Shown here: positions 30,906 through 33,288 of the stretch, in pieces
How positions within the stretch are numbered: position 1 is the first letter of the stretch
Layout: each line of letters starts with the position of its first letter
Assembly: GCF_002872335.1 (NCBI RefSeq)
Contig: NZ_NJAG01000036.1
Span: forward strand, 62,001-126,000
Source of the DNA: Siphonobacter sp. BAB-5405
GTDB taxonomy: Bacteria; Bacteroidota; Bacteroidia; Cytophagales; Spirosomataceae
Length of the DNA stretch: 64,000 nt
Reading direction: 5' to 3'
Program-made: the position numbers and the translations under genes
The notes under the pieces: generated by a model
Told to the model about the DNA's origin: nothing
Databases searched by the model: none
What the model saw: only the letters and a program-made list of their open reading frames with translations

Positions 30906-32602
30906 ATGGCTAAAACAACCAAGCCTTTCCCGGGCGAACCGCCGACTGCCGGCGGCCCGGAAGGTCCGCAACGGACGCAGGTAGTCGTGATTGTCCGGCC
31001 CGGTTTCTCGCCGGAGCAGGGAGCCAGCCTGTTGGCGAATGCCCCGGCCGCAGAATCCGTATCGTTCCGGCCTTTGTTCAACGATACCCCCGCAAGGCTA
31101 TCCACGCTGGAAGCCTCTACGGAACCCGCTCCTGATTTAAGCGTATACTACGTTACGGAAGTGCCCGCTGAGCAGGCAGATCCTCTGATTCAGTCCTTAT
31201 TGCAACGCGAAGAAGTCGAGGGAGCTTACGTACAGCCGCAGGCCACGTTGCCTTTCATTGAAACAGCGGTACGGTCCGCCGCTCCGGATCCTTCCATACC
31301 GGTTACCCCTAGTTTTGTCGATCGACAGGGCTATTTGCAGGCATCGCCCCAGGGCGTTGATGCAGTGTTTGCCTGGACGTATCCGGGTGGACGGGGAGCG
31401 AATGTGCAGGTGATCGACATTGAAGGGGGATGGAATTTTACGCACGAAGATCTGGCTCAGAACTCGGGCGGATTACTCAGCGGCGTACAGCGAGCCGACT
31501 GGCGAAACCACGGAACAGCCGTACTGGGTGTAATCGGTGGAGATACCAATACGATCGGGGTAACGGGCATTAGCCAGATGCCAACCTGCGGGCTATTTCG
31601 GTGTACCGGGATGCGGCCATGACCTATAATCTGCCCCAAGTTATCCAGTTGGCGGCCGATAGCCTCCGGCCGGGTGACATCATTCTAATTGAACAGCAAT
31701 ATTCGCACCCAACCCTGGGCCTTACGACCGTGGAATGGTGGCCCGCTGATTTTGACGCCATTCGTTATGCCGTCAGTCGGGGTGTCATTGTGGTCGAAGC
31801 TGCCGGCAATGGCAACAACAACCTCGATGCGGTGGGCTACAATACGGCTTTGACGGGTTTTCCGGCGACCTGGCGGAATCCGTTTAACCGGGCCAACCGG
31901 GACTCAGGGGCCGTGGTAGTAGGAGCGGGAAATCCGCCGCCCGGTACGCACGGACGCAATGTCGAGACGGGCAGTGGAGAAGTATACACCGACCGGGCAC
32001 GCTGCAATTTTTCCAACTTTGGTTCCATGATCGACGTGCAGGGATGGGGTTGGGAAGTGACGACCACGGGTTACGGCGATTTACAGGGTGGGCCCGAAAA
32101 CGAACAGTATACCGATACGTTCAACGGTACGTCGAGTGCTTCGCCGATCGTTGTCGGAACCCTCGCCTGTTTGCAGGGCATTCTTCGGGCCTACGGACGC
32201 ATCCCGCTGACGCCCGCACGGGCCCGGGAAGTACTCCGCACGACGGGTTCTCCCCAACAGGCCGCAACCGGACGTCCGCTCACGCAACGGATCGGTAATC
32301 GTCCCAACTTACGCCAGTTGATTCCGCTCGTCTTACAAACCAATACCTGGTCGGGCGTGCAGTTTACGGGCAGTTTGGGGGCCAATGCTACAGGTCGCTG
32401 GTATACGTTCAATTGGCCCGCTCACTGGCACGTCGTATGGACGGCCGTTCCTACTACGCCGGTACCCGGTGCTCCGCAGCTTAAAATCAAAACGCAGGTA
32501 GAGCGGGCTTCGGATGGCTTCATTACCTATTGGCTCAATGTAACCAATCTCAGTAACCGGCCCCTGAATTTTGAAGGGAGGTTTACGGTACTGGGCTGGT
32601 AG
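30906..32602 (+). pseudogene. S8 (subtilisin-like) serine protease, split by a -1 frameshift
   Basis: Two overlapping frames (30906-31622 and 31601-32602) together encode one S8 protease of about 565 residues. The first has an inhibitor_I9-like prodomain region, the catalytic Asp in VIDIEGG (D171) and His in NHGTAVLG (H202). The second has the oxyanion Asn in EAAGNGNN and the Ser in FNGTSSASP. The continuous reading should be TGIS..ANLRAISVYRDAAM, so one base is missing near 31575-31580. No signal peptide is present, unusual for S8 enzymes. The last ~80 residues form a separate beta-rich domain (GVQFTG...WYTFNWPA) that recurs as its own gene immediately downstream. An intrinsic terminator ends the three-gene unit. 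Confidence 0.82.
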
Positions 32603-32679
32603 TCTCAACCTGCTGAAACAATGGGGTCTGATAACCCGGATACAAATTTTTCTTAACCTTATTTCAAACCTTCACGATC

Positions 32680-32934
32680 ATGAGAGTTGGTGTTCAATTT
32701 ACGGGTACGGTAGCGGCCAATGCCTCCGCCCAGTGGTATACGTTCAACTGGCCGGCTAGCTGGCACGTCATCTGGCATGTGGTACCTACGTCACCACGGA
32801 CTGGAGCCCCCCAGGTGGAATGGGAAACTCGCGTAGAACGGGCTAACGCCACGTACGTAACCTATTGGGTATTAATTAAAAACCTGACCAACGTACCGGT
32901 CAACATCGAGGCCCGGTACGCGGTTTTGAACTAG
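32680..32934 (+). CDS. Stand-alone copy of the S8 protease C-terminal domain
   Basis: An 84-residue protein. From residue 4 to the end it aligns without gaps to the last ~80 residues of the protease just upstream, with about 46 identical positions counted by eye. Shared blocks are GVQFTG, WYTFNWPA, the VPT...P..GAPQ segment, VERA and TYW. There is no signal peptide, transmembrane segment or catalytic motif; the pattern of alternating hydrophobics suggests a small beta-sandwich. The nucleotide sequences are also similar, so this is a within-operon duplication. It could bind the same ligand as the protease domain, or act as an adaptor, inhibitor or substrate of the protease. The function is unknown. 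Confidence 0.7.
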   Translation: MRVGVQFTGTVAANASAQWYTFNWPASWHVIWHVVPTSPRTGAPQVEWETRVERANATYVTYWVLIKNLTNVPVNIEARYAVLN

Positions 32935-32941
32935 CATCGCC

Positions 32942-33202
32942 ATGAAAATAACCATTGAAGTAGATCCCAAAACCGAAGTCGTTTCTGGCTCAGTAAAGTC
33001 AGACTCAACGCCGAGTTACACCGGCGGGGAGCCCCAGGGAACAGATCCCGCGAGTAGTAATACCGGTACGACTACGACCTCGGGCGACCAGCCGGCCGGG
33101 GAACCTCCCGTCTGGCTATTGGAGGCCATTGAAAACGCTCCGAGTCCGGCAACTGCGGAGGAGCCGATGGGGACCTCTGCGGGTACAGCCCGCCTTGAGT
33201 AG
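32942..33202 (+). CDS. Small Pro/Thr/Gly-rich protein of the protease operon
   Basis: An 86-residue acidic protein that starts 7 bases after the preceding stop. Residues 1-16 (KITIEVDPKTEVVSG) look like a beta strand pair. The middle is low complexity and probably disordered, rich in Ser, Thr, Gly and Pro. A short helix PPVWLLEAIENAP lies near residues 57-70. No known family was recognised. Linkage to the S8 protease and its duplicated domain suggests a partner or cleavage substrate (inference only). Confidence 0.6.
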   Translation: MKITIEVDPKTEVVSGSVKSDSTPSYTGGEPQGTDPASSNTGTTTTSGDQPAGEPPVWLLEAIENAPSPATAEEPMGTSAGTARLE

Positions 33203-33257: not shown

Positions 33258-33288
33258 GGGCAGGAATGGATTTCATCCGTTCCTGCCC
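33258..33288 (+). terminator. Terminator of the protease operon
   Basis: Stem GGGCAGGAATGGA/TCCGTTCCTGCCC (33258-33270, 33276-33288) with one G-U pair and a 5-base loop. It is followed by TTGTCGTTTAAT, 55 bases past the last stop. Confidence 0.7.

Follow-up and report, generated by a model that had tools for sequence, protein, structure and literature searches.

A candidate docking-domain cassette that pairs an S8 protease with a stand-alone copy of its C-terminal domain in Siphonobacter sp. BAB-5405

The window analysed is a 64,000-nucleotide stretch of the Siphonobacter sp. BAB-5405 genome (contig NZ_NJAG01000036.1), and all positions below are counted from its first letter. Three genes and a hairpin, all on the forward strand, form the unit under study. 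The first gene (30906-32602) encodes an S8 protease with a putative C-terminal docking domain (CTD), as identified by a match to PF00082 (Subtilase) in its second reading frame (E 5e-12) and in the intact gene of a sister species (E 3.7e-17). The motifs of the Asp-His-Ser triad, VIDIEGGW, NHGTAVLG and NGTSSASP, can be read in the window translation, and the same motifs are found in many relatives. The N-terminal prodomain (30966-31256) is homologous to prodomain genes that stand apart from the protease in other S8 loci; the prodomain profile matches residues 21-117 of the sister protease (E 1.9e-10), and a model with the sister in its alignment gives E 2.2e-26 in the window genome. The CTD (32351-32599), of about 83 aa, is predicted from its relatives to fold as a six-strand beta-sandwich. 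The second gene (32680-32934) is an ORF for a stand-alone copy of this domain (84 aa), which aligns with the protease C-terminus (32354-32593) at 58% identity over 80 residues (46 identities, E 1.9e-30), in agreement with the count made by eye in the preliminary description. The third gene (32942-33202), located 7 nt downstream from the end of the second, encodes the 86-aa low-complexity protein of that description, with an MKITIEVD start and a disordered body; it belongs to a family of such proteins (profile E 1.6e-13, for a sequence of biased composition). The unit is closed, as also described, by a terminator-like hairpin (33258-33288; 14 pairs, weak T tail).

The preliminary description took the protease as one open frame and overlooked a one-base deletion. 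The gene is split in the ORF list into two frames (30906-31622 and 31601-32602), since a C that is present in the intact gene of the sister species (genome G001) is lacking near 31573. This congener carries the same cassette, with a protease intact at 565 aa. The differences between the two protease genes at codon positions one, two and three are 5/2/14 before the break and 2/2/47 after the break. Behind the break, most of the variation still falls on third codon positions, so that the frameshift is either recent or an error of sequencing or assembly. The stand-alone genes differ by 7 base changes, all at third positions, and encode identical proteins; for the third gene, the differences are 7/10/16. 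These patterns point to purifying selection on the protease gene and the stand-alone gene. Among six genomes searched, both flanking genes were found at high identity only in the window genome and its sister. The reported lack of a signal peptide on the protease is borne out by related effectors, which have no signal-like start, and by the intact sister protein, which begins MAKTTKPFPGEPPTAGG.

The arrangement of enzyme, domain copy and small protein recurs far from Siphonobacter. A search of plasmid records detected the identical three-gene layout in Haloferax mediterranei (Archaea), and 71 further loci came from one scan of 84,980 species genomes, so that the total with H. mediterranei is 72, in 11 phyla (NCBI rank). 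The hosts include monoderm and diderm bacteria, among them Actinomycetota, as well as archaea. Exactly two domain copies, one at the C-terminus of the large protein and one in the next gene, are present in 67 of the 72 loci, and the distance from the CTD gene to the stand-alone gene is usually within 10-70 nt. Both the alignment (E 1.9e-30) and the recurrence of the layout in 72 loci rule out chance similarity. The preliminary description had made its proposal depend on conservation of the small genes beside the enzyme, and this is very strong in distant genomes; the cassette is nonetheless rare among close relatives. Except for G001, it was not found in the other relatives searched, and it was absent from 394 other sampled Bacteroidota genomes. 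Each of 41 cassette genomes tested carries one cassette; a whole-genome search of these detected two domain copies in 36, one copy in four and a weak extra match in one. The cassette appears to be rare, sparsely spread and horizontally mobile. A phage or viral origin was rejected, as neither viral and phage records nor IMG/VR gave a match to the cassette and no significant viral structure was found.

With the docking domain set aside, the large proteins fall into groups for which no mutual similarity was detected. Representatives of each group were named by Pfam, and the effectors were tallied over the 72 loci, two of which are cut. S8 proteases of the window's type were found in 34 loci and a second S8 type in 3, Sortilin-Vps10/BNR propellers in 17 and another BNR protein in 1, Gln_deamidase_2 (protein glutaminase) effectors in 10, Peptidase_M64 in 3, and a type with no Pfam match in 2. 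The preliminary description had suggested an adaptor, decoy, inhibitor or substrate relationship between the domain copy and the protease. The adaptor survives. A decoy, inhibitor or substrate specific to the protease is unlikely, given that unrelated effectors are accompanied by the same stand-alone copy and third gene.

The stand-alone copy had also been taken as a domain duplicated from the enzyme into its own partner gene. The tree does not agree with this claim. When 131 domain sequences are placed on a tree, the label CTD or stand-alone needs 5 changes, versus 43.9 in shuffles, and the two old groups have diagnostic residues of their own: D/E at position 47 of the stand-alone group, where CTDs have mostly S/T/R, D at position 49 versus (often) K/R, and Y/N at position 33 versus T. 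The distances among CTDs follow those among their stand-alone partners (Mantel r 0.77; largest of 999 permutations, 0.18), while the correlation of domain distances with phylum is 0.12. Mapped on the tree, enzyme class requires 8 changes (30 when shuffled) and phylum 26 (39 when shuffled). The CTD and the stand-alone copy thus appear to be ancient paralogues that co-evolve and track enzyme class rather than taxonomy, and a recent duplication from the window's own protease is ruled out by the label split and by this co-evolution. The cassette seems to move as a unit, rarely changing its effector. As to the identity of the shared domain, for which a well-known family had been considered, no Pfam match was found for the 131 members (weak hits at E up to 1 were inspected), and a sequence search of solved structures detected no relative.

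The third gene is present in 70 of the 72 loci, 68 being detected by pattern and two (L033 and L049) by eye. In two loci of the M64 type, L028 and L077, the CTD and the stand-alone copy are kept and the third gene is not recognisable. The third protein typically starts with MR[IV]xIExD, followed by a disordered body rich in A/G/P/S/T with repeated [DN][AG]GxAP motifs, such as TDAGPPSQQLLQAI and ENGGGAPL of L012. These motifs number 1.7 per protein, compared with 0.06 in shuffles, with a median spacing of about 30 residues, and the last motif often lies about 10 residues or less from the C-terminus. In the window protein, the motif positions are degenerate (YTGGEPQ, AGEPPVWLLEAI and SAGTARLE) and none is above the score cut-off; the same profile matches Spirosoma relatives at 3e-7 and 7e-7. 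No clear motif was found in the third protein of L061. Five loci, and likewise L099, retain the CTD and the third gene without a stand-alone copy, indicating that the constant partner of the CTD is the motif protein. A decrease in motif number where the stand-alone copy is absent was looked for, and no clear difference was detected.

Structure predictions were made with AlphaFold on read-through translations across the stop codons, with the frames in register; such artificial fusions force the parts into proximity. In the fusion of L012 (S8 type), both domains are predicted as six-strand sandwiches at pLDDT of about 93-95. The first motif of its third protein together with a helix (216-234) and the last motif (276-280) take up strands and helix at pLDDT 79-86, while pLDDT remains low for the conserved N-terminus and for the middle motif. 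For L052 (BNR type), the expectation was written down before folding, with a motif pLDDT threshold of 70. The model places a strand at DAGPAP (207-211; block pLDDT 78) and another at SAGPAP (233-236; block 64, below the expected 70), the rest being low. From pLDDT and secondary structure we infer a possible contact of the motifs with the domain copies. The N-terminal MRIIIE strand was first expected to be the docking element, and the models give it low confidence. Fold searches with the docking domain listed only generic beta-sandwiches and no close fold; in the comparison with PPC/GOLD/Ig-like sandwiches, the best VIA Z values, 6.3 for the SID1 ectodomain, 5.8 for p24 GOLD and 4.9 for ColG s3, are all within the common background.

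Taken together, the window locus is, in our moderately confident view, a member of a mobile cassette of effector, docking subunit and scaffold, where the stand-alone copy would serve as a co-subunit rather than as an inhibitor specific to the protease and docking is predicted. The putative partnership of effector, stand-alone copy and third protein is well supported by the comparative data; the docking is predicted only, on the basis of models. The effector, here an S8 protease, would end in the beta-sandwich docking domain of about 83 aa, and each scaffold motif would pack as an extra strand onto one copy of the domain. In this way the third protein, as a disordered scaffold, would tie the effector to the stand-alone subunit, in a complex that is either defined or clustered. 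As a structural co-subunit, the stand-alone copy could fill other motif sites or tune the number of bound effectors. The state of the window copy, with degenerate motifs in the third protein and a frameshifted protease, counts against this reading. The same holds for the two M64 loci in which no third gene is recognisable, for L061 with its lack of a clear motif, and for the L052 motif that falls short of the expected pLDDT. The wider proposal stands at about even: an undescribed self-contained chassis, in which a motif scaffold may complete docking sandwiches by strand addition, while unrelated effectors would be swapped onto one conserved pair of adaptors and carried from one domain of life to another.

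Some of the neighbouring genes are specific for the effector. In 25 of the 34 S8 loci, a homologue of the protease's prodomain is encoded by a separate gene, which lies nearly always just upstream (for instance L007, L008, L014, L020, L025 and L030) and looks like a dedicated inhibitor. The prodomain profile also matches nearly every S8 effector, the intact sister included; in the window genome, a profile search found no copy beyond the protease's own. These prodomain genes indicate that an effector domain can be inhibitor-like when it occurs as a separate copy, in line with an alternative in which the stand-alone docking domain is a competitive regulator, either decoy or immunity-like, that occupies the scaffold motifs or caps the CTD and holds the effector inactive or unassembled until needed. 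The two domain types are of the same family with opposite charge at two positions, as such competition would allow. Across unrelated effectors, however, the stand-alone copy matches the CTD in conservation and the two co-evolve, and the absence of the stand-alone copy from five loci that keep the CTD and the third gene is odd for an essential safety device. We regard this regulator as unlikely.

Of the effectors, 69 were of sufficient length for a signal-peptide test. None of them has a signal-like hydrophobic stretch close to its start, and five hydrophobic stretches that were flagged are all internal. The effector families are usually extracellular, yet signal-like N-terminal segments are missing, and this raises a second alternative: the domain could be a non-classical export tag, with the stand-alone copy and the third protein as pilot and chaperone for export of the signal-less effectors. 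The separate prodomain copies of L007, L020, L025 and L030 carry a signal peptide, suggesting that the protease may act outside the cytoplasm. In loci of the propeller type, a small membrane protein with two to three helices was often observed after the third gene (L019, L021, L038, L039, L040, L052, L054 and L065, also L037, L044 and L049); in the propeller loci L050, L056 and L060, a larger membrane protein takes that place. In propeller loci, the small membrane protein is possibly an anchor or an effector-specific partner. The prodomain copies and the membrane proteins probably restrain or anchor the effector in an effector-specific manner, and they hint at a site of action outside the cytoplasm for some effectors. 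Export by a common tag is nevertheless quite unlikely. There is one CTD protein per genome, in contrast to general sorting signals, the hosts are monoderm, diderm and archaeal, and clustering of the neighbours across loci gave no shared transporter, secretion, NTPase-core or pilus gene. A type IX or other general sorting signal was likewise rejected: the window proteins gave no NCBIfam match to type IX secretion C-terminal sorting domains, and the hosts extend to archaea and Actinomycetota. A third alternative, in which the effector would process the third protein as its substrate or as a precursor peptide and the domain would be a recognition element in the style of ribosomal peptides, would fit a short protein with a conserved start and repeated motifs beside a protease, but is very improbable, as the third family also accompanies propellers and glutaminase and the cyanobactin PatA/PatG model TIGR03895 scored 12.4 bits against a curated cut-off of 421.

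In comparison with known systems, the preferred reading of a scaffold with docked effectors finds its closest mechanical analogy in cohesin-dockerin and its closest idea in print in the effector-associated domains (EADs). In the cellulosome, exchangeable enzymes tagged with a domain are assembled on a multivalent scaffold, and the cassette, by analogy, may work similarly in its predicted assembly. In contrast to cohesin-dockerin, the cassette has the domain on the enzyme, short linear motifs on the scaffold and no signal peptides, and no cohesin or dockerin match was found in the window proteins or the 131 domain members. Donor-strand complementation in pili resembles the model prediction of an added strand on a six-strand sandwich; here, however, the strand would come from a disordered scaffold with repeated motifs, and no pilus genes are conserved nearby. 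Subtilases with inhibitor-like prodomains share the S8 catalytic domain and the prodomain, with separate prodomain copies as above; to our knowledge, they have no counterpart of the CTD, the stand-alone copy or the third gene. EADs of NTP-dependent conflict systems occur on core and stand-alone components and have been proposed as coupling adaptors (PMC7159879). The cassette domain is likewise present on effector and stand-alone component (67 of 72 loci), but no EAD family is among the weak Pfam hits (E up to 1) of the 131 domain members, no NTPase core is conserved near the cassette, and the cassette has a constant disordered third protein that bears the motifs. A known defence system was rejected, since a search with PADLOC anti-phage models (E up to 0.01) matched none of the effectors, the domain, the third protein and the prodomain copy. 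The earlier remark that no described system with this layout is known agrees with our search of open-access papers, in which no description of the cassette was found. The cassette would be new in kind, given that its domain and third protein match none of the known adaptor families; with all adaptor-coupled effectors taken as a single kind, it would be another form of that kind. One small domain without a Pfam match and one disordered partner family link several unrelated effector families in bacteria and archaea. If the docking is real, they constitute a compact orthogonal peptide-domain pair, the odd gene layout is explained, and a set of hypothetical genes becomes a testable system.

Outside the regular layout, a number of related loci were observed. 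At L099 (3295-5594; actinobacterial genome G776), a CTD is located on another effector type with no stand-alone copy; the ORF after this effector carries the docking motifs NGGPSP and DGGAAP and does not have the usual MRIIIE start. At L100 (3183-7370; G795), a BNR-repeat protein of 1395 aa carries a divergent domain copy close to its C-terminus; neither a stand-alone copy nor a third gene was recognised at this locus, and a gene for a protein-kinase-like protein follows. Close relatives of the protease without the CTD are encoded on plasmids, for example L088 (6941-8581; Nostoc commune plasmid), in mixed contexts that give no functional hint. The protease thus has relatives that lack the docking domain, which marks the CTD as an exchangeable accessory; one of these S8 homologues ends in a different C-terminal tail.
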